A stretch of DNA of 64,000 nt from the NCBI GenBank assembly GCA_019187225.1, contig JABAQQ010000004.1, positions 62,001 to 126,000 on the forward strand, read 5' to 3'. Position 1 is the first letter of the stretch, and every line of letters starts with the position of its first letter. Shown piece after piece: positions 7,582-43,674 of the stretch. A model generated the notes under the pieces. The model did no database searches. It saw only the letters and a list, made by a program, of their open reading frames with translations, and had not been told where the DNA came from. Both the position numbers and the translations under genes were made by a program. This DNA is from Saprospiraceae bacterium (lineage in GTDB: Bacteria; Bacteroidota; Bacteroidia; Chitinophagales; Saprospiraceae).

Positions 7582-9483
7582 ATGCTCTTCCAACTCGTTA
7601 TGCTCCGACGTTTTTCTCTCCTGCTATTTGCGATTGCGGTATGTGCTATCCCGCTTTTTTCACAACCCGCAGCCGATTCCGCTTTCATCCGCGATCACTT
7701 CACCAAACGCGAAGTCATGATCCCGATGCGCGACGGCGTGAAGTTGTTCACTTCGATTTACTCACCCAAAGACAAGTCGAAAAAACACCCCATCATCCTC
7801 CGCCGCACGCCTTATTCCTGTTCGCCATACGGAGAAGATAAATACACGACCTATATTCAAAACATGCACCTCGCAAGGGCGGGCTACATTTTCGTTTTTC
7901 AGGATGTCCGGGGCCGCTACATGAGCGAGGGCGATTTTGTGGACGTGCGGCCCTTCAATCCTGACAAAAAGTCCCCTCAGGAGGCAGACGAAGCCTCCGA
8001 CACTTACGATGCGGTCGAGTGGCTTGTGAAAAATGTGCCCGACAACAACGGACGCGTCGGCGTGATGGGCATTTCATACCCCGGATTCTATGCCACTATG
8101 GCTGTATTGGCCAACCACCCGGCCATCAAAGCCGTGTCGCCGCAGGCGCCCGTGACCGATTGGTTCATTGGCGACGATTTTCACCACAATGGCGCGCTGA
8201 TGCTGATGGATGCCTTCAGTTTTTATTCCGGTTTCGGCAAGCCGCGCCCCAAACCCACGACCGAATCATCGAAGGGTTTCTCGGACTGGAATACGCCGGA
8301 CAATTACGATTTTTTCCTGCGAGCCGGGGCCATACCCCATTTTTCAGAAAAATTCGGGATGAAAGACATCCCATTCTGGAATGATTTGATGGCGCATCCT
8401 GACTACGACGAATTCTGGAGAGCCCGCAACCCGCGGCCGCATCTGAAAAACATCATGCCGGCCGTGATGACCGTCGGCGGCCTTTTCGACGCAGAGGATT
8501 GCTTCGGCGCCTGGCGTACTTATGAGGCGATCGAAAGACAAAACCCGCAGACCTTGAGCAACCGCATCGTTATGGGCCCCTGGGTGCACGGCGGATGGGC
8601 GCGTACGACCGGCGACCGGCTCGGCAATGTGGTGTTCGGCCAAGCGACGAGTGAATGGTATCAAAAAAATATCGAACTGCCGTTTTTTGAATATTACCTG
8701 AAAGACAAGGGAGAAATGGATCTACCGGAGGCATTGGTTTTTGAAACCGGCAGCAACCAATGGACGCAGTACGATGCCTGGCCTCCCCGCCTTGCCCGCC
8801 CGGTCAAGTTTTTCTTCCACGAGGGTGGAAAACTCGCCGTCGCTCCCCCACCCTCCCCCGACCGTTTGCCCGCCGACAAACAAATGGACGAATACGTCAG
8901 CGACCCCTCCAAACCCGTGCCCTACACCGAAGACGTGCACCTGCACCGTACCCGCGAATACATGACCGACGACCAGCGCTTCGCCGCCCGGCGCCCCGAT
9001 GTGCTTGTATATCAAACGGATGCATTGAGCGATGCCATCACTGTCACTGGCACGGTCACTGCCGACCTGTGGGTCAACCTCAGCACCACCGACGCGGATT
9101 TTGTGGTAAAACTGATAGATGTTTTTCCGGATACGCTCAAAGGTGAAGAGAATGGCGTCCCGCTCGGAGGCTATCAAATGCTCGTCCGGGGCGAGATCAT
9201 GCGCGGACGCTATCGCAATAGCTTCGAGCAACCGCAGCCTTTCGTGCCGGGCACGGTGACCCAGGTGCGTTTCGACCTGCCCGATGTGGCGCATACGTTC
9301 AAACCAGGGCATAAGATCATGGTGCAGGTGCAAAGTAGCTGGTTCCCGCTGGCCGACCGCAATCCGCAACAGTTCGTCAACATATACCGGGCTAAGGATG
9401 AAGATTTTATACCAGCCAATGTGCAGATATTTCACACGCCGCTGGGGGCCTCGGGAGTGATTATGCCCGTGTTGAGGAAATAA
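7582..9483 (+). CDS. Secreted CocE/NonD-family (S15-like) alpha/beta hydrolase
   Basis: This is a protein of about 633 residues with a signal peptide, LLLFAIAVCAIPLFSQ, then the domain beginning VMIPMRDGVKLFTSIY. The nucleophile elbow is GISYPG, with the serine near residue 165. The Asp and His motifs are GGLFDAEDCFGAW and GPWVHGGW. The C-terminal half is the jelly-roll domain of X-Pro dipeptidyl peptidase/cocaine-esterase proteins (DLWVNLSTTDADFVVKLIDVF, then the RGEIMRGRYR motif). These enzymes act on acyl or peptide bonds, often N-acyl amino acids or glutaryl-7-ACA analogues, and the substrate cannot be fixed. Two start codons are possible: ATG 7582, or ATG 7600, which gives the more compact signal MLRRFSLLLFAIAV. 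No sorting domain is present. Confidence 0.92.
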   Translation: MLFQLVMLRRFSLLLFAIAVCAIPLFSQPAADSAFIRDHFTKREVMIPMRDGVKLFTSIYSPKDKSKKHPIILRRTPYSCSPYGEDKYTTYIQNMHLARAGYIFVFQDVRGRYMSEGDFVDVRPFNPDKKSPQEADEASDTYDAVEWLVKNVPDNNGRVGVMGISYPGFYATMAVLANHPAIKAVSPQAPVTDWFIGDDFHHNGALMLMDAFSFYSGFGKPRPKPTTESSKGFSDWNTPDNYDFFLRAGAIPHFSEKFGMKDIPFWNDLMAHPDYDEFWRARNPRPHLKNIMPAVMTVGGLFDAEDCFGAWRTYEAIERQNPQTLSNRIVMGPWVHGGWARTTGDRLGNVVFGQATSEWYQKNIELPFFEYYLKDKGEMDLPEALVFETGSNQWTQYDAWPPRLARPVKFFFHEGGKLAVAPPPSPDRLPADKQMDEYVSDPSKPVPYTEDVHLHRTREYMTDDQRFAARRPDVLVYQTDALSDAITVTGTVTADLWVNLSTTDADFVVKLIDVFPDTLKGEENGVPLGGYQMLVRGEIMRGRYRNSFEQPQPFVPGTVTQVRFDLPDVAHTFKPGHKIMVQVQSSWFPLADRNPQQFVNIYRAKDEDFIPANVQIFHTPLGASGVIMPVLRK

Positions 9484-9505: not shown

Positions 9506-10276
9506 TCAGGCAATTCTGAGCATCTTCGAACGATTGTTCAATCCTAATATCTCCACTACTTCATCCTGTTTGCGGCGCGATACGGGTGCGACTGCTCCGT
9601 TATTCAGGTGCAATACGAGCCCGTCCGTTTTGGCCGCCAGGCGAATACTGTTGATGTTGACAATATGCGACTGATGGGTACGGATAAAATGATCGGACGG
9701 TAGCAACTCCTCAAATTCCTTAATGGACCGTGCCGCAAAATGCGTCGTGCCATTGGTCAACGTAACATAGGTATAGTTGCCCTCCGATCTGATGTGCACG
9801 ATCTCTTCCAACTGCACAAAGAAATGCCCTTCGGTGCCGGGGAATACGATACGCTCCAGGCGACGGTCGCGGTAATTTTCGCGCAGATTGTGGAGCTGCC
9901 CGGAATATGCGTCCGGGTGCGTTTGCCGGGACAGGCGAGCGACCGCAGCAGCCAGATCGTCGGAGTTGATGGGTTTGAGCAGGTAGTCCAGTGCGTTATA
10001 GCGGAAAGCCGTGATAGCAAATTCATCGTGCGCGGTGATAAAAATCACAGCAAAATGAGGTGATGGAAATATCTCCAGCAGATCGAAGCCGGAGCCGTCG
10101 CCCAGGTCTATATCGAGAAAAACGACATCGGGACAGCATTGGGCAATGACGGCTGCGCCCTGCAGCGCATTGTTCGCCTCACCGCAAATGATCACATCAG
10201 GGGCGCAGGTGCGGAGCAATAGTTGAAGGACGCTTCGGGCGCCAGGTTCGTCATCAATAATCACTGCTTTCATCAT
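9506..10276 (-). CDS. LytTR-family response regulator
   Basis: This 256-residue protein has an N-terminal receiver domain with the acidic pocket D8/D9, phosphoacceptor D55 in VVFLDIDLGDGSG, the T/S in FITAHDEF and the lysine in LLKPIN. The C-terminal LytTR DNA-binding domain, from about residue 150, has EEIVHIRSEGNYTYV, FIRTHQSHIVN and the closing VSRRKQDEV. It lies 35 bp downstream of the sensor kinase on the same strand, so the two form one operon. Phosphorylation by that kinase would control binding to paired promoter repeats; targets are unknown. Confidence 0.95.
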   Translation of the reverse strand: MMKAVIIDDEPGARSVLQLLLRTCAPDVIICGEANNALQGAAVIAQCCPDVVFLDIDLGDGSGFDLLEIFPSPHFAVIFITAHDEFAITAFRYNALDYLLKPINSDDLAAAVARLSRQTHPDAYSGQLHNLRENYRDRRLERIVFPGTEGHFFVQLEEIVHIRSEGNYTYVTLTNGTTHFAARSIKEFEELLPSDHFIRTHQSHIVNINSIRLAAKTDGLVLHLNNGAVAPVSRRKQDEVVEILGLNNRSKMLRIA

Positions 10277-13372: not shown

Positions 13373-13559
13373 GCCTGCCGCTTTCCACAAACACACGCGT
13401 AATACGCCACTGGAAGCCCAATTTTGGCACTATCCCCTGTTAGGGGTAACATTTTCTTTTGCCCGTTGATATGTGTTTGTCCTTGATGCGGTGTTTCGCA
13501 ACATCGCAAAAGGACAATCGTATTTTTCTTTTCTCACTTTTGAAAAACAAAAGAAAACC

Positions 13560-16500
13560 ATGCGAAAAATCTACTTCGCGTTCTTCCTGTCTGCTATATG
13601 CACGGCACTCCATGCTCAAGACCCCTGCCCCAGCAACCACGCGCTCGACTTCGACGGCGTAAACGACTACATTCAACTCAACAACAGCACCCTGACGGGC
13701 AACAGCAATTTTACCGTCGAGGTTCGTTTTTTCCGCGACCCCGCCGCCCCTGGCGCATCCAATCAGCGGAGGCTGTTTTCTCTGGGCGGATTGCTGATTA
13801 CGCCCCCTTTTAACATTGTGACCACCCGCTTCGATGTTTTCGAGATCAGCGGGCAGTTGTATTTCCAGTGGAATGCTGATCCTGCTTATACTGTCGCCAA
13901 CAACATCAACGACGGGAACTGGCACCATCTGGCCGCTGTGCGCAACGGCAACAATTTTAAAATTTACTTAGACGGCAACCTGATCAAAGACCAGAACGTC
14001 AGCACAGCGCTGAATATCACGGCTTTTCGCCTCGGTACCTCCTGGGTGAGTCCAGGTACGGGATTCTACTGGGACGGCAAGCTCGATGAAGTGCGTATCT
14101 GGAACACGGCGCGGACGGAGGCGCAAATTGACCCGTATATCAATTGTTCGCTTGCCAGTTGCAATCAGACGAATCTGAGGGCATATTACAAGTTTAATCA
14201 GGGCATCGCCAACGGCAACAATTCAGGTCTCACTACATTGACCGATTGTACGGCCAATAACCTCAACGGGGCGCTTACCGGCCCTTTCGCGCTCACCGGA
14301 AGTTCTTCCAACTGGGTATGCGGCGACCCGCAATTCGGCGCCGTCTGCTGTCCGGCTGACTTTTCCTGGACGAGCGACAGCTGCGGCAACGTGCAATTCA
14401 CCAACCTGACACAGCAGCCTGTACCGCCTCTGTACACTTATGCGTGGGATTTCAACAACGACGGCACGACAGACTCCAATACAGCCAACCCTTCCTGGGA
14501 TTTTTCTACTCCGGGCAATTATACGGTTTGCCTTTCCTTGATCACAGGCGCCGGAGATATTTTTTGCAAAACATGTAAAACAGTCACTGTCACAGATATT
14601 TCCGGACCGCCGGTCATTGTCAGTTGTTCGCCCAATGTGACACTCAATTGCGGCGATCCTTACCAGGTACCTGTGCCGGCAGTGCAAAATAATCCCTGTG
14701 CCGACCAACTTAACATCACCGGGAGCCGGAGCGACCTGCTCTTTATGAACGATCCCTTTCCCGTCGGCGTCACGGTGATCACCTGGACAGCCACCAATGA
14801 ATTTGGCAGCAGCACCTGCACCAATACTGTGACAGTAACAGACAATGTACCGCCGGTGGCCTTGTGCAATAATATCACGTTCGTCCTGAACGGCAGCACC
14901 ATCACTGTGACTCCTCAAATGGTGAACAACGGGTCGTTCGATGCCTGTTGCCCGAATGTAACGCTATCATTTCCAAATGCGCCGGCTGGACTGACTTTCG
15001 ATTGTCAGGACGCCTGCCCGCCCATTCCGCAAACAGTGGTACTGATGGTAAGCGATTGCAACGGCAATACCTCGACCTGCACGGCGCAGTTGGCAGTGGT
15101 GGATAACACGCCGCCCATCGTGTCGTGCCACGACCAGTTAATCATTCAGGTGGACGCTTTCGGTTTTGCGTCCATTTCGGTCAACGATGTGATCGAAGGT
15201 GTGGCGTTCGACAACTGCGGCATCACAGATATGTTCCTCAATACCAATGGATTCGATTGCAGCGTCGCCTGCGGTCCACCTCAGACCGTCGTGCTGACGG
15301 CAGTGGATTGCGCAGGCAACACAGCCCAGTGCTGGACGAGTGTGGAGGTGGAGGACAAAATCCCTCCGCAGATCGTCTGCCCGCCCAACCAAACAGTCTC
15401 CACAGATCCCGGCATTTGTCAGGCCACTGTGTCGGCAGCGCCTGCTTCGCTCACCGACAATTGCACCGTGGCTTTCCTGCAACACACACTCTCCGGTGCG
15501 ACCACCGGCAGCGCGCCCGGGCCGGTTCAAAATACGCTGTTCAATACCGGGGTGACTACCTGCAACTATATTGCGCAGGACGATTGTGGCAACACGGCCA
15601 CCTGCTCGTTCACAGTGACGGTGCTTGATTTCGAATCGCCCGTCATCATTAACTGCCCGCAGAATATCAGTGTGAGCGCCCTGCCGGGTCAAAGCGGAGC
15701 GGCGGTTTCATGGATTTCTCCTTCCGCTTCGGATAATTGCCCGGGAGTAACGCTGACTTCCACCCACACGAGCGGCGATATCTTTCCCTGCGGCGTAACG
15801 GTAGTGGCTTATATTGTGGAGGATGCGAGCGGAAATACCGCTACCTGCACATTTTCCGTGACGGTGGATTGCCCGCCGCCGCCTTCCTGCGAGTGCGGCG
15901 GTTTCAGCAATTTGACCTTTGGCCCTCAAGGTACTGCTCCGCAAAATGTGGCCTGCGGTCAATTTATCAACGTACCCTGCCCCGTCGATGGGACGACTTT
16001 TGTGCTGAATGGCAATTTTACCTGTGTCGGCCCCAATTGCCTGCCCTCCAACATTCAATTGGTCAACAGCGATAACACGCCAATTGGATCCGGCAGTATA
16101 ACAGGGACGAGTTTTTCCTGGTCTTTTGGCGGCTATCAAATCAGCAATCCGGGTTGGTATGAACTGTATTTGCGGGGTGATTGCGGGCAGCAGACCTGTG
16201 AGTGTATTGTGCGGTTCGTGGTGCCGGAATGCCCGGACACTACTTGTGAAAATCGTGCATTGGACTTCGATGGGATCGACGATATGGTGACGGTGAATCC
16301 CAGCCCGGTGCTGGGCGATGATGATTTTACAGTGGAAGCCCTGTTCACCAGCACTGCAAATGGCGGCACAACAACTTGCAGCGGGGATTTCAGGAGACTG
16401 TTTTCTTTTGGCGGAACCAACTCCAGATTTGAAGTGGGCGAATGCGCCGGCTTAATGAGCATATATTGGTACAATGGCATTTCTAACGGCCCGTACAATA

Positions 16501-19500
16501 TGAGCGACCAAAACATTCGGGATTCCAATTGCCATCACATTGCGGTCATCAGATACGACGACAGCGTGCGGGTATTGCTGGATGGAACGCTGATATTTCT
16601 CAGTGGCGGCGTAAGCCCCCTCAATACCAGCTTTTTCAGATTGGGTCAGTGGGTCGGCAGCCTGGCTCCCGGCGAGAACTGGCAGGGCCTGATTGATGAA
16701 GTCAGGGTGTGGAATTATCGGCGCAGCGAAACGGATATTTTGGCAAACAACGGCTGCGAACTGCTTGGCAGCGAAACTGGTTTGGTAGGTTATTGGCCCT
16801 TGAACCAAGGCATTGCAGAGGGCAACAACTCCACCGTGACACAATGCACGGACATGGCGGGCAACGACCATCCGGGCGTGATGTCGAATTTTACCCTGAA
16901 CGGCAAAACGTCGAACTGGGTGTGCGGGTGCGAATTGTGCAAACCATCCAGAGATACCCTGGCGTGCGGGGATGCAGTGGTCACTTGTTATTCCGGTTTA
17001 CCCGGCGCATCGGGAGTAGTGGCTGCTATCAAAAAACTTCAAAATGTATATAGTCTGCCTACAGGAACGGATTTGTCCGGCTCCATTTCCACTTCCAAAA
17101 TGTGGTTGAAGACAGAACTGGGAGAGGTCTTTGGAATTGCCATTGACAACAACAATCAAGGCGATATCTATTTCACTTCAACTACCGTTTACGGTCCCAC
17201 TGCGCCCGGACCAAACGGATACGGTGGTATTTACAAGGTTGACGGCAACACGCTGCTGGTCGATCCAGGCTGGGTGGTAAGCCTGCCTAATTTGCCCGGA
17301 TCCGCGGTGACCAGCGCATCTTCTTCACTCATCCATTCCCCCGGATTGGGCAATATTTGTTATGACAAATGGAACAACCAATTGCTTGTCACCAACTTCG
17401 AAGATGGGAGGATATACAGGATTGGCCCCACTGGCACTGGCTCCGTCATTGATTATTTTGATCCGTATGGCGACAATGGACTACCGGGTTTCGCACCCAT
17501 CGGGGAGCGTCCGTGGGGTATAGATGTTACGCAAAATGCGGCGGGAGAGATAGAAGTATATTACGCTGTCTGGGCCGTAGACAAATTGAGATACGGCGGA
17601 GGCGCCTACAACTCGATCAGAAGAGTGAAACTCAATCCCGGAGGCAGTTTTGATACCGGATCAGACGTGGAAGTTATTCAACTGCCGTATACGATTGCGG
17701 TGAACTACTCCAATCCGGTTTCCGACATAGCTATTTCCCAGGATGGAGAAACGATGCTGCTCGCAGAGCGTACTATGGACGGTGATATGAAACCTGATAA
17801 TGCGATTACGGCTGTTTGGGCCCACCAGTCCAGATTGCTGAGGTATGAAAGGACCGGAAGCACCTGGACTTATGACCAAACTATCCCAATTGGCGAATAC
17901 GGCTCAGGTACATTCGGAAGAAACAGCGCAGGAGGTGTTGATTTTGGCAATTACATATCTGCCAACGACTCTGTGACTACCTGCGATACTTCTATTTGGT
18001 GTACCGGAGACTATTTGAGGATATCTTGGCCCAATAAAGTATATGGGATGCAGGGTTTTTATCACGATAATCCGGCTGTCACAAACGTCAATTCCTGGCT
18101 ACTCGATTTTGACGGTCTCCTTGCCCAATATGACAAATCCCTGCTCGGAGATGTTGAAATCTTCAAATGTGTTGACTGCCCGATCGTCAATCCATGCGAA
18201 AGTATTTCGGCGGTCGCAGTACCCGATTCCACTAAAACCGGTTGTTGTTATACTTTACACACAGGCAATCAGACACCCGATTTCTTTACCTATGTCAACA
18301 TCTCCGTCATCGACGGCGGCTCGCTGGTCACTTCACCACCACCAGCAGCGGGCGCGGGATGGACTTTGCAGGGTTATTCCGGTAACAGCGCTCTGTTCCA
18401 GCCCACAGGTGGTACCATACCCACCGGCCTGCAGCAGGTCGCCGATTTCTGCCTCGAAAACCTGACTGCCGACGAGCAGACCATCGTCATCGAATTTTAC
18501 GATCAAAGTGATTCGGTCGTTTGCCGCGACACGCTCAAATTAAAATGCGACGCCTGCGTGCAGACCTTCGTGGATTCGGTGTATTGCGAATCCTGGAATG
18601 TCTATAAAATGGACTTCTGCGTAAAAGCGGGTGAAGATTTGGACTGGACGATCGGCTCGATTAGCATCCATCCGCCGGCAGGCATCACTTTCACGCCCGA
18701 CGTGTTCTCGCTGCCGGACCTGACGGCTGGGCAGACTTATTGTTATCTTACCACCACTGTGACCGGTGGGACGCCGGGGCAGGTGATTTGCTTCAGTTCT
18801 GTCGTCCACCACGAAGACATCGCCGCCGGAGAACTGGACCTGAGTTGTTGCGCCGATACGGTGCCGGTTTGTTTCACATTACCCGATTGCGATCCTTGCG
18901 ACGACAGCACAACTTACGCCACAGCCGTGCAGGCGATACTCGACGGTGACTCTTGCTGCTGGAAAATCACGCTGCACAACCCGCCCGGCTACTACACCGG
19001 CGTCAGCACGGAAATCATTACGCCGGGCGTGGTATTCGGCGCTGTCAGCAATTTCCCGCCGGTCACGGGTTGGCAGATTGCCGGCAGCACATCGAGTTAC
19101 CTCTCCTGGGACCCCTTCGGCATTCAGGGCACGCACGTTCAGGACGGCTGGATGTTACCGGTGATGTGTTTCGACGGAACGGCCCCGGGGCCCTGGGAAC
19201 TGGCCATCACCTGGTACGCGGAAGATTCCACCGAGTGCTACGACACGCTTGCGTTCAACTGTACTCCGCCTGCCGGCAGCGATTGCGTCCTGCTCGACAC
19301 CTTCGACCTGGAGTGCCTCGACGACGGCGTTTATACGTTCAACTTTACGATCACCAACGTCACCGACAACCCGGCCATCACCGCCGACCATATTGTGCTG
19401 GGACAACTCAAACCCGCTCCGCCACCCTACGATGTTTTCGACCCGCAGGTACACTGGCAGACCATACCGCCCAATACCCCGGTTTCCTTCTCCTCCCAGT

Positions 19501-20420
19501 TGCATGGCAACCCCGGCGACACCATCTGTTTTACCATCGCCCTGCACGACGTGAACGACGACTCGCTGCACCTGAACTGTTGCGCCGACACCTTCTGCAT
19601 CGTATTGCCGCCCTGCGGACAAACGTTGGAATGTGCGGAGAACATCGTCATCGATGGAGGTTTTCTCAACACCTACCACCCGCAATTTCAAAACTTGACG
19701 GATTTCTGGGTAGCGTATGACCTTTCCACGCCCAATTACATTACCGATGATTCCTGCAACAACAACAACTCGGCAGAAATGATGGGCACTCAATTGAGCG
19801 GGGAGGGTATTTACCAAAAGGTCAACTTCATCGCCGGGCATTTGTACGCTATCCGACTCTGCGCCAGGTATGCCGACCCCTTCGGCGGCCTTCAGCCTCA
19901 AATCCGTTTGTTCGCCGACGACGGCATCGGGACGAGTACTTACCCCGCTTCGGGATGCACATTGCCTGATTGCGAACTGATCGGATTTACGCCTGTACTG
20001 GGCACCAATTGGGCCTTTTATACCCTGAACTGGGTCGCGGACAACGATTACACAAGGCTCATACTCACGCCCTGGAACCAATCCGTCATTCCCGGCCAGG
20101 AAGTGCCGTCCGTTGTCCGGGTCGACCGGATTTGCGTGGACGATCACGGTGTGGTCTTGCCCTCCTACTCCGGACTCTCTGTACGGGCGTATCCGAATCC
20201 GACTTCGGGCAATCTGACGCTGGAACTCGACCGTGTATTGGGCGCCAGCGCGACGTTGCGGGTGTTCGATGCGTTCGGGCGGTTGGTGAAAACGGAGCGC
20301 GTCGCCGAGGCGCAGTTGCAGCACGAATTATCGCTCGATGGACTTCCGGCGGGCGTCTATTTCGTGGAAATCGGCGATTCGGAAGCCCGCCTATGGGGGC
20401 AAAGGATTGTGAAAGAATAG
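13560..20420 (+). CDS. Giant T9SS surface protein with LamG, PKD and HYR modules (2286 residues)
   Basis: A signal peptide (MRKIYFAFFLSAICTALHAQ) precedes, in order: a LamG/concanavalin-like domain (about 22-230, LDFDGVNDYIQL, EVRIWNTARTEAQI), a PKD domain (about 265-340, YAWDFNNDG), several HYR-type Ig modules (about 348-777, repeating DNTPPIVSC-like starts), a second LamG (about 897-1120, LDFDGIDDMVTV), a propeller-like region (about 1130-1540), a Cys-rich block shared with the next gene (about 1545-2018), a jelly-roll-like region and a type A T9SS tail (about 2203-2286, VRAYPNPTSGNLTLEL to GVYFVEIG). The protein is exported and probably cell-surface attached, as an adhesin or glycan-binding protein. 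The ATG at 13560 begins the signal peptide. It is divergent from the kinase operon. Confidence 0.9.
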   Translation: MRKIYFAFFLSAICTALHAQDPCPSNHALDFDGVNDYIQLNNSTLTGNSNFTVEVRFFRDPAAPGASNQRRLFSLGGLLITPPFNIVTTRFDVFEISGQLYFQWNADPAYTVANNINDGNWHHLAAVRNGNNFKIYLDGNLIKDQNVSTALNITAFRLGTSWVSPGTGFYWDGKLDEVRIWNTARTEAQIDPYINCSLASCNQTNLRAYYKFNQGIANGNNSGLTTLTDCTANNLNGALTGPFALTGSSSNWVCGDPQFGAVCCPADFSWTSDSCGNVQFTNLTQQPVPPLYTYAWDFNNDGTTDSNTANPSWDFSTPGNYTVCLSLITGAGDIFCKTCKTVTVTDISGPPVIVSCSPNVTLNCGDPYQVPVPAVQNNPCADQLNITGSRSDLLFMNDPFPVGVTVITWTATNEFGSSTCTNTVTVTDNVPPVALCNNITFVLNGSTITVTPQMVNNGSFDACCPNVTLSFPNAPAGLTFDCQDACPPIPQTVVLMVSDCNGNTSTCTAQLAVVDNTPPIVSCHDQLIIQVDAFGFASISVNDVIEGVAFDNCGITDMFLNTNGFDCSVACGPPQTVVLTAVDCAGNTAQCWTSVEVEDKIPPQIVCPPNQTVSTDPGICQATVSAAPASLTDNCTVAFLQHTLSGATTGSAPGPVQNTLFNTGVTTCNYIAQDDCGNTATCSFTVTVLDFESPVIINCPQNISVSALPGQSGAAVSWISPSASDNCPGVTLTSTHTSGDIFPCGVTVVAYIVEDASGNTATCTFSVTVDCPPPPSCECGGFSNLTFGPQGTAPQNVACGQFINVPCPVDGTTFVLNGNFTCVGPNCLPSNIQLVNSDNTPIGSGSITGTSFSWSFGGYQISNPGWYELYLRGDCGQQTCECIVRFVVPECPDTTCENRALDFDGIDDMVTVNPSPVLGDDDFTVEALFTSTANGGTTTCSGDFRRLFSFGGTNSRFEVGECAGLMSIYWYNGISNGPYNMSDQNIRDSNCHHIAVIRYDDSVRVLLDGTLIFLSGGVSPLNTSFFRLGQWVGSLAPGENWQGLIDEVRVWNYRRSETDILANNGCELLGSETGLVGYWPLNQGIAEGNNSTVTQCTDMAGNDHPGVMSNFTLNGKTSNWVCGCELCKPSRDTLACGDAVVTCYSGLPGASGVVAAIKKLQNVYSLPTGTDLSGSISTSKMWLKTELGEVFGIAIDNNNQGDIYFTSTTVYGPTAPGPNGYGGIYKVDGNTLLVDPGWVVSLPNLPGSAVTSASSSLIHSPGLGNICYDKWNNQLLVTNFEDGRIYRIGPTGTGSVIDYFDPYGDNGLPGFAPIGERPWGIDVTQNAAGEIEVYYAVWAVDKLRYGGGAYNSIRRVKLNPGGSFDTGSDVEVIQLPYTIAVNYSNPVSDIAISQDGETMLLAERTMDGDMKPDNAITAVWAHQSRLLRYERTGSTWTYDQTIPIGEYGSGTFGRNSAGGVDFGNYISANDSVTTCDTSIWCTGDYLRISWPNKVYGMQGFYHDNPAVTNVNSWLLDFDGLLAQYDKSLLGDVEIFKCVDCPIVNPCESISAVAVPDSTKTGCCYTLHTGNQTPDFFTYVNISVIDGGSLVTSPPPAAGAGWTLQGYSGNSALFQPTGGTIPTGLQQVADFCLENLTADEQTIVIEFYDQSDSVVCRDTLKLKCDACVQTFVDSVYCESWNVYKMDFCVKAGEDLDWTIGSISIHPPAGITFTPDVFSLPDLTAGQTYCYLTTTVTGGTPGQVICFSSVVHHEDIAAGELDLSCCADTVPVCFTLPDCDPCDDSTTYATAVQAILDGDSCCWKITLHNPPGYYTGVSTEIITPGVVFGAVSNFPPVTGWQIAGSTSSYLSWDPFGIQGTHVQDGWMLPVMCFDGTAPGPWELAITWYAEDSTECYDTLAFNCTPPAGSDCVLLDTFDLECLDDGVYTFNFTITNVTDNPAITADHIVLGQLKPAPPPYDVFDPQVHWQTIPPNTPVSFSSQLHGNPGDTICFTIALHDVNDDSLHLNCCADTFCIVLPPCGQTLECAENIVIDGGFLNTYHPQFQNLTDFWVAYDLSTPNYITDDSCNNNNSAEMMGTQLSGEGIYQKVNFIAGHLYAIRLCARYADPFGGLQPQIRLFADDGIGTSTYPASGCTLPDCELIGFTPVLGTNWAFYTLNWVADNDYTRLILTPWNQSVIPGQEVPSVVRVDRICVDDHGVVLPSYSGLSVRAYPNPTSGNLTLELDRVLGASATLRVFDAFGRLVKTERVAEAQLQHELSLDGLPAGVYFVEIGDSEARLWGQRIVKE

Positions 20421-20697: not shown

Positions 20698-23600
20698 ATG
20701 GCTTACCGGGTAAAAGTCAATGTCAGCAAGATTTTCATTGTCTTGCTCTTATTATCAGGCTCGCGCATGCAGGCCCAAACCATTTCCGGCAACGTCCACC
20801 GCAACAGCGGTCAACCCCTGCCCAACGCGACGGTGGACATGACGGGCGATGTCACAGGCGCGGATTTGACTGGAATACCGGGCGATTATCTGTTTGAAAA
20901 TATCCCGGCTGGCAGTGATGTGACCCTGACACCATCGAAAGATGTGGATCATACGGAATGTGTGAGCGTGCGCGACCTGATTTTTATATCGAAGCACATA
21001 CTCGGTCTCATGCCCCTGCAAAGCCCTTACCAGTTGATCGTGGCCGATGTAAATAAAAGTGGCTCTATCACTACATTCGATGCCGTGGAGTTGCGCAAGT
21101 TGATACTCGGTATTTACACCCAATTTCCGAACAACACTTCATGGCGTTTTATGGACGCCAATTATATTTTCCCCAATCCGGCCAATCCGTTCCAAAGCGC
21201 CTGGCCCGAATCGGCGGGCATTGCGGATATCCAGGCCGACGTGGTGCAGGATTTTATAGGCATGAAAACCGGCGATGTTACGGACTGCGTGAACGACGCG
21301 CCCGCCCCGGCTTTTCTCACACTTTCGGCCTCCAATGCCAGTGGAATGACCGGTCAGCAGGTGAGCGTGGATGTGTCGGTACAGGGGTTCAACGACGTGC
21401 TGGGACTGCAATTTTCGATGGAATGGGATCCGGCGGTGCTGCAACTCGACCAGGTGAACAACCTGAACCTCGCCAATCTGTCTTTAGCCAGCATGAACAG
21501 CACCAGCGGCAAATTGGCTGTTTGCTGGACCCACGATGTCGCCTCCGGCGGCCTGAGCGTCCCCGACGGCACGAATATCTTTTCGCTGCAATTTACCATT
21601 GTCGGAACGGACGGCGGCGTCACGCCCATCGCTTTTGTGCAGACGCCGACAAAATTCGAGGTGGTGGACGGCGATTGTTTGCCTTACGGTTTGAATGTCA
21701 GCAACGGGAATGTGCAGTGGTCAGGGGACGGAAATCCGGACCTTCAACTGATAGCCTCTTCAGCGACCGCCTGCCCCGGCGAGACGGTTTGTGTGGACAT
21801 AAGTGTGGCCGATTTTAATAACATTGTAGCAGGGCAATACAGCATGAGCTGGGACCCCTCAGTGATCAATTTTCAACAAGTACAAAATTTCGGCTTGCCG
21901 GGATTGACATCTGCCAATTTTGGCACTTCGCAGGTTTCTTCGGGTTTATTGAGTTTTGCCTGGTTCGACCAAAATGCTACAGGAGTCACCTTGCCTGACA
22001 ATTCGGTGTTGTTTGAAATTTGTTTCGAGGTGATCGGGGCATCGGGGGCTTTATCCCCGGTTGAGTTCGCCAGTTCCCCCACTGGGCTGGAATTTATCAA
22101 TGTCGCCGGGGGTGTCGTGCCGGTTCAATCAGACAACGGTTCGGTCGCGATAATTGATTGCCAGCCAGGCGATTGCTGCACCGACCAGCAGGCTTTCGAG
22201 GACAACGTAAATCAGGGTTTCTCTTTCAGTCAGCACAAATGCGGCGTATCGGTCGCGCCGAATGGCCTGGGGCATTGTCAGCAAGTCGCCTATACCTGGG
22301 GCGACGGTTCCACGAGCGGGCCTTTTACCGGAAATACTCCGGCCTCTCACCTGTACGCTGCGTCAGGCTATTATTCCTTGTGCGCCATAGTGGAAGAACT
22401 CGACACTCTGGGGCAGCCGTGTTTTACGAGGGACAGCTGTTGGGAAATTTGTGTGACCTGCGACACTTGCTCCGAGCCGGCGATCATGCTTAACTGGTCG
22501 CGCGCGGGAGGGAATTCGTTCAATATCGGTGGCAACAATTCCAATTTTTACATCTCGTCCAATGCGTCCGGCGATTTTTTCGTGACGGGCGGTTTTTCGG
22601 GCGCTTACCAGGGTTTGAACTCTGCTACTGCCGGTGCGCACGATTGTTTCGTGGCGAAATACTTCAACGACGGCACGCTCGACTGGGAATTCGGCTTCGG
22701 CGATGCCGGGGAAGAAATCGGCACAGTCGTCAAAACGGATGCGGCAGGCAATATTTTTGTCACGGGGATTTTTAACAGCCCCTCTTTCACCATACCTTCT
22801 CCGGGAGGAGGTACTGGCCCAATAGCGCTTTCCAACAACGGCGATGAAGACATTTTTCTCGCCAAATTCGATCAAAGCCGCAATTTGCAATGGGCATTCA
22901 GCCTCGGCGCGGCGTGGGGCGAGCATGTAGAGGATCTGGATATAGACAAGGACGGCAATATTATCATCGTCGGGCTGTTCAGGGCAACGGTGGATTTCGA
23001 CCCGCTGTTTACCCATACGACCTACACCAGCAATAACGGCAGCAATTTTTACGCTGCAAAGTACCTTTCTTCCACCGGGCAAATGGTTTGGGTAAAAACC
23101 ATCAACGACGACGGGGGGGCATTTCCGTTGGGCGTCAGCACTGAGCCTGTGAGCGGCGATGTCTACGTCGCAGGCCATTTTTCCCAATCGGTGGATTTTG
23201 ACGGCGACGTCATTCCCGAAATTACGCAAAGCGGCGTCGGCTCCAATGCGATTGCCCCGTTTATCGTAAAATATTCCGCTGCAGGTGCGTATCAATGGGC
23301 GATTGCCATTCAGGACGCTCCCAAAACCAGCACAGGGATTGCCTGGGACGTAGAAGCCGACGCAGGCAGCGTTTACGTGGCCGGAGATTATGGCAATGCG
23401 CCGGGAATTGACTTCGACCCCATAGGTGGCGATCCCGCATTTGAATTGAACGGCAGCGCCAGTTTTGTCGCCCGGTATGACCACAGCGGTAATGCGCAAT
23501 GCGTACAAAACGCCCCTTCCAATGTTGGCGTCCGTGAATTGTCCATCGGGCCGGATGGCCGTATCTACCTGTCGGGCAACAGGTACAACCAGCGCATGTT

Positions 23601-26589
23601 CGTCGGCATATTCGACCAGGATTGCGGGATGATCAAATCCATGGAACCTCATGGCACTCCTTCCTCCTGCGCTTTCAGTTGGTCGGTAGCGCCCGACCCG
23701 TTCGGCGATTTTGCGATCATCGGGCGCTTCACCGATCCCGATTTCGACGCCGACCCGATGGCAGCCAACGGTACTGAACACAACTCGGACGGGGTTTGCG
23801 TTGGTCCCGGCAACGGTATTACCGACTTGTTCGCTGATATTTTCATCGGAAAATACAGCTGCTTTTGCCCCGGTTCCACACCTTTTTGTTCTTCCTGCGA
23901 CTCTGTCGCCACAACCGCCGTCAAAGACACTTCGGCATCGGGCTGTTGCTATACTTTGAACGTGCACAACGACAAACCCGGCTATTTCACCTACGTCAAT
24001 ATCGTCGTGCAGGGCGGCGGCTCTTTGATGACTTTCCCGCCGCCAGCCCCAGCGACAGGCTGGACTTTGCAAGGTTATGCGGCCAACAGCGCCCTGTTCC
24101 AGCCGGTCGGCGGCACGATTCCGGCGGGTTTGCAGTCAGTGGCCGGTTTTTGCCTCGAAAACCTGACCGCAGACGAGCAAACCATCGTCATCGAATACTA
24201 CGGCCCGGGCGATACCGTCGCCTGCCGCGATACGCTTATATTGAAATGCGACGCCTGCGTGCAGGCCATCGTGGATTCGGTATATTGCGAATCCGGGACC
24301 GTTTTCAAAATGGATTTTTGCGTGAAAGCGGGCGAAAGTCTCGACTGGACGCTCGGTTCCATCAGCATCCATCCTCCTGCGGGCATCACTTTTACGCCCG
24401 ACGTGTTTTCGCTGCCGGACCTCACGGCAGGGCAAACGTATTGCTACCTGACCACCACTGTCACCGGCGGAACGGCGGGACAAGTGATTTGTTTCTCCTC
24501 CGTTGTCCACCACGAGGATATTGCCGCCGGCGAACTGGATTTAAGTTGTTGCGCCGACACTGTACCGGTTTGTTTCACGCTGCCAGCCTGCGACCCCTGC
24601 GACAGCACGATTACTTATGCCACAGCCGAACAGGTTATCAGTCCGACCGACAGTTGCTGCTGGAAAATCACCCTGCACAACCCGCCCGGCTATTACACCG
24701 GCGTCAACACCCAAATTGTCACGCCAGGCGTGGCGTTCGGCGCTGTGAACAATTTCCCCCCAATAAGTGGCTGGCAGATGAGCAGTACTTCATCAGACTA
24801 CATCGCATGGACGCCTTTCGGCCCTCAAGGTAGTCACGTCCAGGACGGCTGGATGTTGCCGGAAATTTGTTTCGACGGCAACGCACCCGGGCCCTGGGAA
24901 CTGGAGATCACATGGTACACAGCGGATTCCACCGAGTGTTACGACACGCTTGAATTCAATTGCCCTGCGACGGGAACAGGCGGCAATGATGACTGCGCGA
25001 TAATGGATTCGGTATCCATCTTCTGCAATCCGGACGGCACTTATTCCTTCAATTTTGTGGTTACCAACCTCGCCACATCGCCGCCTTTCACTGCCGACCA
25101 TATTCATTTGACGCCGATGGGACCGTTCACCGTAACGCCTTCCGATTTTTACCTCCTCCTGCCGCCATTTGCCACCAGCCCGCTCCTCACGGCCACCATC
25201 ACCGGAAGTCCGACGGGCGGGGTATTTAACTTCCTCGTGTCGCTCCACGACATCGCCGACGATAGTTTGCACCTCAATTGCTGCACGACCGACACCATTC
25301 CGGTGCCGGTAGGCGACAGCTTCGGCCCAACCTGTACCGCACCGCCCAATGTGACGGTGGACTGTGAAAATTTCGACCCGGGCCTGAACTACGGAACAGC
25401 GACCGGAACCGACGAGTGCTGTTTCGACACGATCATTGTTTCAACGGATTACTCCCTGCTCGACTCGTTCTGCCACCGGGGAACCGTTACCAGGACGTTC
25501 ACGGCGCTCGATTGCGCGGGCAACGCCACCACTTGTCAGCAGCAGATCAGCGTGGTATACAAGCAGGATTATTACGTCAAATTCCCCGACGACCTGATCC
25601 TGACGAATTGCAACGGTACGGGAGACTATGGAACGCCCGTATTTTACGGTGAGGATTGTGAATTGATCGCGACATCGTTCGAGGATGAAGTCTTTACCAA
25701 TACCTCCGATGCTTGTATCAAGATCGAGCGCAGCTGGACGATCATAAACTGGTGCACCTACGACCCGGGCCTGCCCTGCACGGTTGTGCCCAATCCCAAT
25801 CCGGTGGCCGATGTCAATGATCCGGCTAACCTGCCTGGCCCAGTCGTGTCGGAATCCGGCAACAGCGTCGGGGGATGGGCGCCCACCGTGGCCGCTATCA
25901 ACCCCGGCGATTCGCCGACGGATTTTTCCACCTTCTGGAGCACCGCTACCAATTGCTACCAATACAAGCAGATCATCAAATTACCGGATTGCGAGGCGCC
26001 GGAATTGTCGTGCGTTCAGGGATTGGTTGTCAATATTGGGCAGACCGGCCCGCCAACGGTCATCGTTTGGGCAACATCTTTCGTTCAATCCGCGCAGGAT
26101 AATTGTACGCCGTTCCAATTCCTGACTTTCGGCATCCGCATCGTCGGATCGGGAACTGGATTTCCGGGCGGCCAGGAAAATATAACATTCACCTGCAACG
26201 AACTGGGCATCCAGCAGGTGGAGATATGGGTAATGGACGAAGCCGGTAACGTGAATTTCTGCGTGACATCTGTCACGATTCAGGACAACTCCAATTTGTG
26301 CCCCCAGGCGATTTCTGGTGACAGCAAGGCGTTCCGCTTGTATCAAAACCAGCCGAATCCCTGGAGCGAACAGACCCTTGTGCCTTTTTATACCCCGGAC
26401 GCCGCTACTGCGACGCTGACAGTGTACGATGCCATGGGACGGGTTCATCACACGGCCACCGGCGAATTCCCCAAAGGCGACAATGTGTTTGCGTTAGATA
26501 AAAAAGTCGCCGATGCAGACGGGATGCTCTACTACCGCGTGGAGACGCCGACAGCAAGCGCAACGATGAAAATGGTGAAAGAAAAGTAA
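20698..26589 (+). CDS. Giant T9SS surface protein with dockerin, two cohesin-like domains and SBBP propeller (1963 residues)
   Basis: After a signal (KIFIVLLLLSGSRMQAQ) come a CarboxypepD_reg-like strand region (about 28-80) and a type I dockerin with two 12-residue calcium loops, D82-D93 and D117-D128 (DVNKSGSITTFD), 35 residues apart. Two cohesin-like domains follow (about 206-342 and 349-487; VSVDVSVQGFNDVLGLQFSM and VCVDISVADFNNIVAGQYSM). Then come a Cys-rich PKD-like part, a propeller of SBBP-type repeats (about 600-1060), the block shared with the 2286-residue protein (about 1067-1540), HYR-like modules and a T9SS type A tail (about 1885-1963). It would be anchored outside the outer membrane and could both dock and be docked to. 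Cohesin assignment is by pattern, not by search. Confidence 0.87.
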   Translation: MAYRVKVNVSKIFIVLLLLSGSRMQAQTISGNVHRNSGQPLPNATVDMTGDVTGADLTGIPGDYLFENIPAGSDVTLTPSKDVDHTECVSVRDLIFISKHILGLMPLQSPYQLIVADVNKSGSITTFDAVELRKLILGIYTQFPNNTSWRFMDANYIFPNPANPFQSAWPESAGIADIQADVVQDFIGMKTGDVTDCVNDAPAPAFLTLSASNASGMTGQQVSVDVSVQGFNDVLGLQFSMEWDPAVLQLDQVNNLNLANLSLASMNSTSGKLAVCWTHDVASGGLSVPDGTNIFSLQFTIVGTDGGVTPIAFVQTPTKFEVVDGDCLPYGLNVSNGNVQWSGDGNPDLQLIASSATACPGETVCVDISVADFNNIVAGQYSMSWDPSVINFQQVQNFGLPGLTSANFGTSQVSSGLLSFAWFDQNATGVTLPDNSVLFEICFEVIGASGALSPVEFASSPTGLEFINVAGGVVPVQSDNGSVAIIDCQPGDCCTDQQAFEDNVNQGFSFSQHKCGVSVAPNGLGHCQQVAYTWGDGSTSGPFTGNTPASHLYAASGYYSLCAIVEELDTLGQPCFTRDSCWEICVTCDTCSEPAIMLNWSRAGGNSFNIGGNNSNFYISSNASGDFFVTGGFSGAYQGLNSATAGAHDCFVAKYFNDGTLDWEFGFGDAGEEIGTVVKTDAAGNIFVTGIFNSPSFTIPSPGGGTGPIALSNNGDEDIFLAKFDQSRNLQWAFSLGAAWGEHVEDLDIDKDGNIIIVGLFRATVDFDPLFTHTTYTSNNGSNFYAAKYLSSTGQMVWVKTINDDGGAFPLGVSTEPVSGDVYVAGHFSQSVDFDGDVIPEITQSGVGSNAIAPFIVKYSAAGAYQWAIAIQDAPKTSTGIAWDVEADAGSVYVAGDYGNAPGIDFDPIGGDPAFELNGSASFVARYDHSGNAQCVQNAPSNVGVRELSIGPDGRIYLSGNRYNQRMFVGIFDQDCGMIKSMEPHGTPSSCAFSWSVAPDPFGDFAIIGRFTDPDFDADPMAANGTEHNSDGVCVGPGNGITDLFADIFIGKYSCFCPGSTPFCSSCDSVATTAVKDTSASGCCYTLNVHNDKPGYFTYVNIVVQGGGSLMTFPPPAPATGWTLQGYAANSALFQPVGGTIPAGLQSVAGFCLENLTADEQTIVIEYYGPGDTVACRDTLILKCDACVQAIVDSVYCESGTVFKMDFCVKAGESLDWTLGSISIHPPAGITFTPDVFSLPDLTAGQTYCYLTTTVTGGTAGQVICFSSVVHHEDIAAGELDLSCCADTVPVCFTLPACDPCDSTITYATAEQVISPTDSCCWKITLHNPPGYYTGVNTQIVTPGVAFGAVNNFPPISGWQMSSTSSDYIAWTPFGPQGSHVQDGWMLPEICFDGNAPGPWELEITWYTADSTECYDTLEFNCPATGTGGNDDCAIMDSVSIFCNPDGTYSFNFVVTNLATSPPFTADHIHLTPMGPFTVTPSDFYLLLPPFATSPLLTATITGSPTGGVFNFLVSLHDIADDSLHLNCCTTDTIPVPVGDSFGPTCTAPPNVTVDCENFDPGLNYGTATGTDECCFDTIIVSTDYSLLDSFCHRGTVTRTFTALDCAGNATTCQQQISVVYKQDYYVKFPDDLILTNCNGTGDYGTPVFYGEDCELIATSFEDEVFTNTSDACIKIERSWTIINWCTYDPGLPCTVVPNPNPVADVNDPANLPGPVVSESGNSVGGWAPTVAAINPGDSPTDFSTFWSTATNCYQYKQIIKLPDCEAPELSCVQGLVVNIGQTGPPTVIVWATSFVQSAQDNCTPFQFLTFGIRIVGSGTGFPGGQENITFTCNELGIQQVEIWVMDEAGNVNFCVTSVTIQDNSNLCPQAISGDSKAFRLYQNQPNPWSEQTLVPFYTPDAATATLTVYDAMGRVHHTATGEFPKGDNVFALDKKVADADGMLYYRVETPTASATMKMVKEK

Positions 26590-42180: not shown

Positions 42181-43608
42181 TTAACGCCTTTCCAACTTTT
42201 TTGTCACTTGCCCTGCAAGCCATTCGCGGTGCATCATTTCCCGCGCCGGTGGTAATTGTTCATAAAGGGACTGGTAGCGCCCGCGGTCGCCGGGAGGGAT
42301 TTTTATAAATTTGGCAGTGAACTCCACAAATTTTTGCATTTGCCGTTTGCGTTCCGGGTCGAGCACCTGGTTGCGATGCAAGAATATCCGCGTAGCTTCC
42401 AGGTACGATACCAGCAGCTCGGTCTGGTCGGTTTCACAAAATATCTTGATGAGCAGGCTGCGGACCGTAATATTGAGCAGCACGTCGGTAAATTCGACCT
42501 GGAGCAGGGCCTGCTGGGCCTCGTCGTATTGTTTCAGGTGGTAATGATATTGGGCAAGGTTGTAACGGAAAACGTTTTCCGCGTATTCCGCCGGAAGCCG
42601 CCCGCAGTAATCGTGGATAAACTTGCTGGTCCAATCGGCTTGTCCGGTTTTAAGGCCGACCGCCACGATGTTGGTATAGTCCCAGGGCGAAATAAAACCG
42701 CCATTGAAGATCAACCCGTTTTTCAGAAGTATTTTATTGATCTCCAAATGTTCATGTAAAAAACGGTCGTCGTTGAAACGGTTGATCCGACGGGTGCAAT
42801 AGTTGAGCAATTGAAGATAGAGCTGTTGCAATTCGCCGGATTCAAAAAAATGCTCCGAAGCGGCGATCAGGGATTTAGCCGATTCGAAGTGCTCCGTCTC
42901 ATCGGGATGGGTCAACAGCAACAACAGGTTGCGGTAAATCCGGATTGCCGGAATATCAGAATAAATTTCCGACTCCGACCAGGCCATGACCTCATCCAGG
43001 TAAGGGGTATCGTAACGTATGTTCAACACGGTTTCGTAATTGAGCATTTCACAGGCATAACGCAGTTTTTCGGCAATGAAATAAACATCGAGGGCATCGG
43101 CAGCCACCTGAAGACGCTCGTTGTAAATCCTTTGATGGTGGTCGCCGTGCTCGTAAAAAAAACGCCTGGCGATGAGTTGTTCTCTATAAAAACCGGCATC
43201 GCGCAGAGGCGACAACGCTAATATTTTTTCTGCCTCTGCCTGCGTGGATTTATAATGCTTAGGCAAATCCAGATCGCGATACAACTGCATTAATGTCAGT
43301 TGTTGTTTCCATTCGTCGGAAAGGAACGACTCTACAACGAGGAATCTTTCAGTTAGTGCGAGCAGGCGGCTGGACAAATGAGCCAGCGATTTTTCGTCCA
43401 GCGATTTGTTGACCGTCAGTTTTTTCAGCACATTTTGACGCGAAAGTTGCGGATGGTTAAAGGCAGGCGCGTATTTTTGTAAATAATTGAAAAGCAGCAG
43501 ACAATCGTCATTCTTGTTAAAAAAAGGCGACTGCAGAAAATCGCCTAACCGCGATAATTGCCGCGGCGTCAGCGCCCTGAAAAGTTCGATGAGTTTGCTG
43601 TCTGTCAC
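42181..43608 (-). CDS. Conserved helical hypothetical protein (475 residues)
   Basis: The start is GTG at 43608 (MTDSKLIELFRAL), supported by an upstream GGAGG eight bases before it, one of the few Shine-Dalgarno sequences in the window. The protein is almost all helical with Leu/Tyr-rich repeats resembling TPR/SEL1 solenoid helices (YRNLLLLLTHPDETEHFESAKSLI, LYLQLLNYCTRRINRF, YNLAQYHYHLKQYDEAQQALLQVEF). There is no signal or membrane segment, so it is cytoplasmic. No catalytic motif is visible. I do not recognise a named family; a scaffold or regulatory role is possible. It is divergent from the dockerin-type T9SS gene with only 66 bp between start codons. Confidence 0.72.
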   Translation of the reverse strand: MTDSKLIELFRALTPRQLSRLGDFLQSPFFNKNDDCLLLFNYLQKYAPAFNHPQLSRQNVLKKLTVNKSLDEKSLAHLSSRLLALTERFLVVESFLSDEWKQQLTLMQLYRDLDLPKHYKSTQAEAEKILALSPLRDAGFYREQLIARRFFYEHGDHHQRIYNERLQVAADALDVYFIAEKLRYACEMLNYETVLNIRYDTPYLDEVMAWSESEIYSDIPAIRIYRNLLLLLTHPDETEHFESAKSLIAASEHFFESGELQQLYLQLLNYCTRRINRFNDDRFLHEHLEINKILLKNGLIFNGGFISPWDYTNIVAVGLKTGQADWTSKFIHDYCGRLPAEYAENVFRYNLAQYHYHLKQYDEAQQALLQVEFTDVLLNITVRSLLIKIFCETDQTELLVSYLEATRIFLHRNQVLDPERKRQMQKFVEFTAKFIKIPPGDRGRYQSLYEQLPPAREMMHREWLAGQVTKKLERR

Positions 43609-43674
43609 GATAGAACCTCCATGCGCCTAAAGTTCCGGCACTTTCAGCGTCATTTCCTAACCAAATGCACAATT

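Follow-up and report, generated by a model that had tools for sequence, protein, structure and literature searches.

The closest published system that we found is the cellulosome-like complex of Candidatus Stygibacter (Cloacimonadota), for which the consulted part of the source describes C-terminal dockerins on secreted enzymes, including peptidases of families S8/S53 and C25, and a cohesin-bearing scaffoldin whose C-terminal domain serves to attach it to the surface (PMC8542988). It was inferred from sequence, as is the system described here; according to the same part of the source it also includes glycoside hydrolases and a scaffoldin with CBM2/CBM3, whereas the present system has a lysyl-endopeptidase-like protease, a SprB-repeat scaffold that ends in CHU_C, a distinct protein with one cohesin, and an X-dockerin–cohesin unit in cis on many surface proteins. 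A partially consulted report on a rumen Bacteroidetes genome identified no cohesins or dockerins and called this consistent with other Bacteroidetes genomes (PMC5831590), and excerpts of two others report Pfam dockerins in some gut Bacteroidota (PMC10266427) and state that Saprospiraceae abound in wastewater plants and include protein degraders (PMC9304909). No title or abstract opening in the literature found names a cohesin–dockerin system in Saprospiraceae, and an earlier mention is possible.

Three other known groups bear on the comparison. In clostridial adaptor scaffoldins, a single non-catalytic protein bears several cohesins along with a dockerin, as is the case for the protein described below. 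The cohesin fold occurs outside cellulosomes, as here, in Archaeoglobus fulgidus (2xdh) and in a cohesin-like module of Clostridium perfringens (2jh2), and to our knowledge neither of these comes with a T9SS or a multi-cohesin scaffold of this kind. SprB-repeat gliding adhesins share SprB repeats and a CHU_C type IX tail with the two multi-cohesin scaffolds that were scanned, but the scaffolds here have N-terminal arrays of at least three cohesins, and we know of no such arrays in SprB.

The protein of interest is a 1963-residue T9SS surface protein encoded at 20698–26589 on the forward strand of the window, by which we mean the whole 64,000-nucleotide stretch of DNA that was analysed. A signal peptide, recognised by eye, occupies residues ~1–27 (20698–20778) and is followed by an X domain resembling CarboxypepD_reg (residues 28–79, 20779–20934; Pfam 18.7 bits, below the cut-off of 32.3), a Dockerin_1 module (81–137, 20938–21108), a conserved dockerin extension, NTSWRF...FIGMKTGDV (146–193, 21133–21276), cohesin 1 (206–342, 21313–21723), cohesin 2 (349–487, 21742–22158), an SBBP-type beta-propeller stretch (714–937, 22837–23508), further repeats, and a T9SS type A sorting domain (1886–1962, 26353–26583). 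The first-pass annotation had claimed a type I dockerin with two calcium loops, two cohesin-like domains directly after it, and a T9SS tail. The loops do lie at D82–D93 (DVDHTECVSVRD, 20941–20976) and D117–D128 (DVNKSGSITTFD, 21046–21081) of the translation, 35 residues apart from start to start; PF00404 scores above its cut-off, though only just (23.4 against 22.9 bits; 26.2 bits for the excised module); PF00963 matches two stretches with 60.8 bits (E 2.1e-16, cut-off 24.1), in line with the pair of cohesins; and the tail scores 27.1 bits with NCBIfam TIGR04183 (cut-off 23). The propeller matches the LipL53-type SBBP model NF047494 at E 4e-15, but with 55 bits against an equivalog cut-off of 400. 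The protein thus has the signal peptide (by eye) and the C-terminal domain of T9SS cargo, and, like an adaptor scaffoldin, it places dockerin and cohesins within one chain in which Pfam and NCBIfam scans detect no catalytic domain.

The dockerin was compared in an alignment of 94 rows, one for the window protein and the others for its 93 homologues. Loop 2 is complete, and its D117 and D128 are kept in all 94 rows. Loop 1 is atypical at positions 5–7, with T at position 5 and E-C at positions 6–7 (residues 87–88), where 92 of the 94 rows have N and 93 have G, respectively. The flanks are the CarboxypepD_reg-like X domain before the dockerin and the extension, conserved as FxGxKxGDV, after it. 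The Pfam dockerin model matches 93/94 rows of the family alignment (A3) at E 0.01, and a profile built from 42 family dockerins (A6) retrieves 25 different PDB sequences at E ≤ 10. Ranked first is 8zvk (AaBglC; E 1.9e-6), followed by the dockerin chains 4uyq_B (E 3.3e-6) and 4uyp_B, then by 8x39 (titled 'Serine protease'), 4dh2_B and 2vn6_B, with 1ohz_B lower in the list (E 0.0019). The high-ranking 4uyq and 4uyp are both titled 'Cellulosomal scaffoldin adaptor protein B', which we take to be ScaB of Acetivibrio cellulolyticus. The AlphaFold2 model of X domain, dockerin and extension is confident (pLDDT 96.5, pTM 0.88) and consists of a strand-rich X part followed by three helices and a few strands. 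In a Foldseek search of the PDB with this X-dockerin alone, none of the 50 best matches is titled as a dockerin; they are transthyretin-like and carboxypeptidase-domain chains, dioxygenases and others (best E 0.001), so that the dockerin is unconfirmed by structure search. This result, the marginal Pfam score and the atypical loop 1 all count against the network reading proposed below.

The cohesin assignment was examined by structure prediction for cohesin 1 and by sequence search for cohesin 2. The excised X-dockerin–cohesin 1 segment, modelled by AlphaFold2 with 94 sequences, has pLDDT 87.3 and pTM 0.86, and, judged by title, every one of the 50 PDB matches that Foldseek listed for it is a cohesin or a chain that includes one, among them 6kge, 5nrk and 1ohz (TM to target 0.74–0.76 for cohesin 1) and the non-cellulosomal 2xdh and 2jh2; a cohesin fold is therefore predicted for cohesin 1, as the earlier claim anticipated. 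Cohesin 2 matches the solved cohesins 2vn5 and 1g1k at E ~1e-4 in a single-sequence search. A FastTree phylogeny of 201 cohesins over 139 columns, in which 86/196 inner branches are weak, separates 85 post-dockerin cohesins from the rest with 3 label changes, against 64.7 when labels are shuffled. The nearest rows to cohesin 1 are scaffold cohesins and those to cohesin 2 are of the single-cohesin and scaffold types, and no starred set contains either. The window protein's cohesins thus group with the scaffold types and not with the usual post-dockerin type, and for this reason the protein resembles an adaptor scaffoldin, apparently a hybrid in which an X-dockerin is joined to scaffold-type cohesins. 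Its exact architecture appears to be rare, because among the matches listed from 100 family genomes (cut at 1e-40) no second protein spans X-dockerin through cohesin 2.

There are also differences from clostridial adaptor scaffoldins. The window protein has a T9SS tail, a CarboxypepD_reg-like X domain before its dockerin, and an atypical loop 1, and in its genome a search for GH9 found nothing and one for Cellulase (GH5) a single match, which has no dockerin. That GH5 match (C3:54877–55623) lies apart from all dockerin and cohesin matches; on the strength of these two families, the first-pass statement that there is no cellulase holds only in a loose sense. The defining parts of a cellulosome, dockerin-bearing glycoside hydrolases and a cellulose-binding scaffoldin, were not found among the scanned proteins of the genome. 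By Pfam, no CAZyme or CBM match occurs in 19 X-dockerin proteins (or parts) from this genome, in its scaffold or in the protease described below. That the protein is a surface scaffold of a Bacteroidota bacterium and binds partners, a possibility raised in the first-pass annotation, is the best-supported reading of the predicted domains.

The 7.18 Mb genome is rich in such modules. At E ≤ 1 the Pfam models match it 31 times for cohesin and 34 times for dockerin, with 21 and 15 of these exceeding the respective cut-offs, whereas 14 control genomes have cohesin matches in two (one over the cut-off) and dockerin matches in nine (two over); with nine of 14 controls matched, weak dockerin matches alone mean little. 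The many matches in this genome and in related loci exclude a one-off or chance combination of dockerin and cohesin. A family profile identifies 29 X-dockerin modules in the genome at E ≤ 0.01, and the architectures of the 28 scoring at least 60 bits with a local profile were classified. The common form is a C-terminal X-dockerin–cohesin–T9SS tail (24/28); the tail lies further from the module in two (the window protein and L034), one has a tail without a cohesin, and one, in the protease, is terminal. Among 120 X-dockerins of other genomes, 114 are of the X-dockerin–cohesin–tail form, none is tail-distant, two have a tail without a cohesin and one is terminal, with three more cut by contig ends and three weaker matches dropped; all these counts are biased, since loci were chosen by similarity or by cohesins. 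The cohesin of the common cis unit has diverged, as Pfam Cohesin matches only 42/94 tandem modules at E 0.01, the rest being cohesin-like by the local profile. The window protein, with its X-dockerin near the N terminus, departs from the common form, and the idea that it is simply a standard family module was rejected in part, since both the position of the module and the cohesin type differ. The 19 X-dockerin proteins scanned are mainly adhesin-like (HYR, Ig-like, BNR, WD40-like and SprB domains), with one redoxin-like; the scan left out eight X-dockerin frames of this genome (L012, L014 twice, L024, L027 of 2333 aa, L029 of 2203 aa, L030 and L034). The last 1068 residues of the frames L027 and L030, on contigs C26 and C55, are identical, through either a recent copy or an assembly effect.

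A second type of locus pairs a single-cohesin gene with a multi-cohesin gene. The single-cohesin protein is about 265 residues long, has one cohesin and a T9SS tail, and is often encoded beside a scaffold. Searched against 60 family genomes, a profile of ten such proteins gave matches in every one, but the profile also covers the widespread T9SS tail; 27 of the matches listed, one per genome, were judged to be full-length genes. Excluding this genome, 23 of the 26 single-cohesin loci have a neighbour with at least three cohesins, in two the contig ends after one cohesin, and one lacks neighbouring cohesins; the pair was also seen in five of 14 further loci picked otherwise. It is present in the genome studied here, where the scaffold has three cohesins by local profile together with SprB repeats, and where the tail of the single-cohesin protein scores 29 bits with the local profile and has no Pfam match at E 0.01. 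By Pfam, both scaffolds scanned, this one and that of L041, have SprB repeats and a CHU_C tail, and cohesin arrays reach ten in one frame (L132, L139 and L147). Directly upstream of the single-cohesin gene in 9/26 loci is an X-dockerin–cohesin gene (five) or its cut cohesin–tail end (four), and an X-dockerin–cohesin gene is likewise directly upstream in nine named loci found via the X-dockerin. In other genomes, several scaffold loci begin with a contig edge lying a short way upstream of the single-cohesin gene, which suggests that repeated tails may interrupt assembly. The locus of Phaeodactylibacter xiamenensis (L083) has about eleven cohesins after its single-cohesin gene, over two overlapping frames with one cohesin split between them; the break between the frames could be genuine or due to a sequencing error.

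The window also encodes, at 57829–59739 on the reverse strand, a 636-residue secreted serine protease that ends in an X-dockerin and is the proposed client. Its lysyl-endopeptidase-like catalytic domain (residues 194–440, 58420–59160) matches 4nsy (E 3.5e-30) and 1arb (E 9e-28), with Pfam Trypsin_2 at 18.5 bits, below the cut-off. The X domain (460–513; CarboxypepD_reg 37.4 bits, cut-off 32.3) and the dockerin with its extension (513–629) span 57853–58362 and end a few residues before the stop. The dockerin scores 19.7 bits with Pfam, below the cut-off and without a match at E 0.01 in the Pfam scan of the protein, and matches the family profile A2 at E 2e-63. No cohesin or T9SS tail was detected in the protease. 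In the ~130 bases beyond its stop (57829), non-coding translations repeat words, RNPQSEIRNPKSAI and, in another frame, AIRNPKSAIRNPQS, and this is probably a short intergenic DNA repeat.

Homologues of the protease occur in 73/100 family genomes (E 1e-10). The best 30 loci, the present one included, all end in an X-dockerin, with no T9SS tail or cohesin found. Forty further loci, 20 chosen for long frames and 20 for short, include 15 with a dockerin and no detected tail (L212 among them is truncated by a contig end, and L218 continues for 63 residues beyond the match), 18 with a T9SS tail (16 by local profile, two by NCBIfam), four with a GCX_COOH domain above the cut-off, and three with none of these. 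Overall, the 70 homologues comprise 45 with a dockerin and no detected tail, 18 with a tail and no dockerin, seven with neither, and none with both. A single branch (SH-aLRT 100) sets all 45 dockerin forms apart, which excludes many independent exchanges of tail for dockerin and indicates that the replacement happened once, long ago, and has been retained; the 45 cases do not count as repeated evidence. A strict motif count (13/45) had suggested that the dockerin-bearing proteases are dead, but the aligned His, Asp and Ser of the catalytic triad are each present in 45/45. T9SS cargo is described, in the consulted part of one paper, as folded and as requiring a folded C-terminal domain (PMC9251779), so that a protease without a tail would need another route or a partner; the portion of a T9SS review that was consulted held nothing useful on export of tail-less T9SS passengers.

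The distribution of the two modules differs. The best 80 of 555 related loci are assigned in GTDB to Saprospiraceae (53), Saprospirales (two), Phaeodactylibacter (three), Chitinophagales (three), plain Bacteroidota/Bacteroidetes (18) and Thermoanaerobaculia (one, perhaps misbinned). An order-wide sample of 149 genomes has the X-dockerin (E 1e-10) in 22/23 Saprospiraceae and 5/126 others, and a cohesin (E 1e-4) in the same 22/23 Saprospiraceae and 19/126 others; G065 is the sole exception within the family, without either module at these cut-offs. A phylum sample of 296 Bacteroidota genomes has the X-dockerin in eight (five of the six family members) and cohesins in 83, of which 78 are without an X-dockerin at the cut-off, so that a cohesin match alone says little. 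The X-dockerin without a cohesin at the cut-off was found in four genomes outside the family, G058 in the order sample and G299, G434 and G475 in the phylum sample. By these profile matches the X-dockerin is close to a Saprospiraceae trait, and cohesins are common in the phylum; the co-occurrence of the two arises in part because they are fused. Another family of the order contributes a scaffold-like frame (L148, genome G109) whose four cohesins have their starts spaced by 477, 477 and 748 residues, beside a cohesin–dockerin–cohesin–tail frame, possibly a separate version of a cohesin–dockerin system.

Judged by predicted domains, the system has three recurring parts: surface proteins of the X-dockerin–cohesin–T9SS tail form, the pair of single-cohesin protein and scaffold, and the X-dockerin protease. 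We lean towards the explanation that the window protein belongs, as an adaptor-like component, to a cohesin–dockerin surface network distinct from cellulosomes that would load the protease onto T9SS-borne scaffolds. Cohesins displayed through the T9SS, on the scaffold, the single-cohesin protein and the paired cohesins of the window protein, would bind X-dockerins in trans, presumably in a calcium-dependent manner, and this would gather the protease and other surface proteins on the cell surface; the likely clients are surface proteins and the dockerin-ended protease of the same window. The window protein's own dockerin would plug into a scaffold, and its two cohesins would serve as extra sockets. 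Saprospiraceae would then keep a plug-and-socket set with the protease as its clearest client, and, if the binding is true, the cellulosome principle extends to protein breakdown on T9SS surfaces, the export of tail-less T9SS passengers becomes testable, and new cohesin–dockerin pairs become available for protein assembly. A more ambitious version, which we regard as doubtful, is a protease-loaded surface machine in which scaffolds of the gliding-adhesin type, displayed by the T9SS and with up to about ten cohesins, capture X-dockerin proteins, the tail-less lysyl-endopeptidase leaves through the T9SS bound to a cohesin partner with its dockerin replacing the secretion signal, and the window protein is a branch point.

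Alternatively, X-dockerin and cohesin might have been reused as calcium-stiffened spacers in the stalks of surface adhesins, binding no partner. The unit's position directly before the T9SS tail in 114/120 classified X-dockerins of other genomes (a biased choice), the mainly adhesin-like character of the 19 scanned proteins, none with a CAZyme match, and the four genomes with an X-dockerin but no cohesin match are all consistent with spacers. Spacers leave unexplained, however, why a terminal X-dockerin has been kept throughout the 45-member clade of a tail-less protease, and why scaffold genes have cohesin arrays without any dockerin, and we consider this alternative unlikely. The case for a clamp in cis, in which each dockerin binds the adjoining cohesin of its own chain to form a closed module, and the window dockerin is capped by cohesin 1, is distinctly poorer, though the pTM of 0.86 for X-dockerin–cohesin 1 (against ~0.55 for a freely placed cohesin, by our own estimate) fits a rigid placement, an adjacent dockerin and cohesin in one chain may make up a single rigid unit, and the gap between the profile matches is 3–17 residues in 133/144 cases. 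Mean-field coupling analysis of 138 tandem sequences, at low power, gave no coherent dockerin–cohesin patch, the top 120 pairs including nine between dockerin and cohesin (of 8184 possible) against 18 within the dockerin (of 1891), and the protease dockerin has no neighbouring cohesin to clamp.

A further alternative concerns the protease alone: its X-dockerin could itself take the place of the T9SS tail in export or sorting and have no cohesin partner. The absence of any protease homologue with both dockerin and tail (0/70) fits such a role. Elsewhere, however, the X-dockerin precedes a T9SS tail in the same protein, and cannot be the sole sorting signal there; moreover, the predicted secondary structure of the X-dockerin, with its three helices, differs from the Ig-like sorting domains known to us. 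We therefore hold this to be very improbable, and retain the network of trans-binding cohesins and X-dockerins as the preferred reading.

A second, different dockerin-like group is also present, at 43558–44796 (forward strand) of the window and in L026, L033 and L031 (a reverse-strand frame). Its members have two EF-type loops, score 16–21 bits with Pfam, all below the cut-off, and mostly belong to short proteins in which the T9SS tail is weakly matched; L026 adds two cohesin-like domains. Immediately upstream of the window protein, at 13473–20420 (forward strand), is a 2315-residue T9SS protein with Laminin_G_3, HYR and PKD-like domains and with no dockerin or cohesin match. Farther upstream, an X-Pro dipeptidyl-peptidase (S15) at 7582–9483 (forward strand) adjoins a LytTR response regulator at 9506–10276 (reverse strand).
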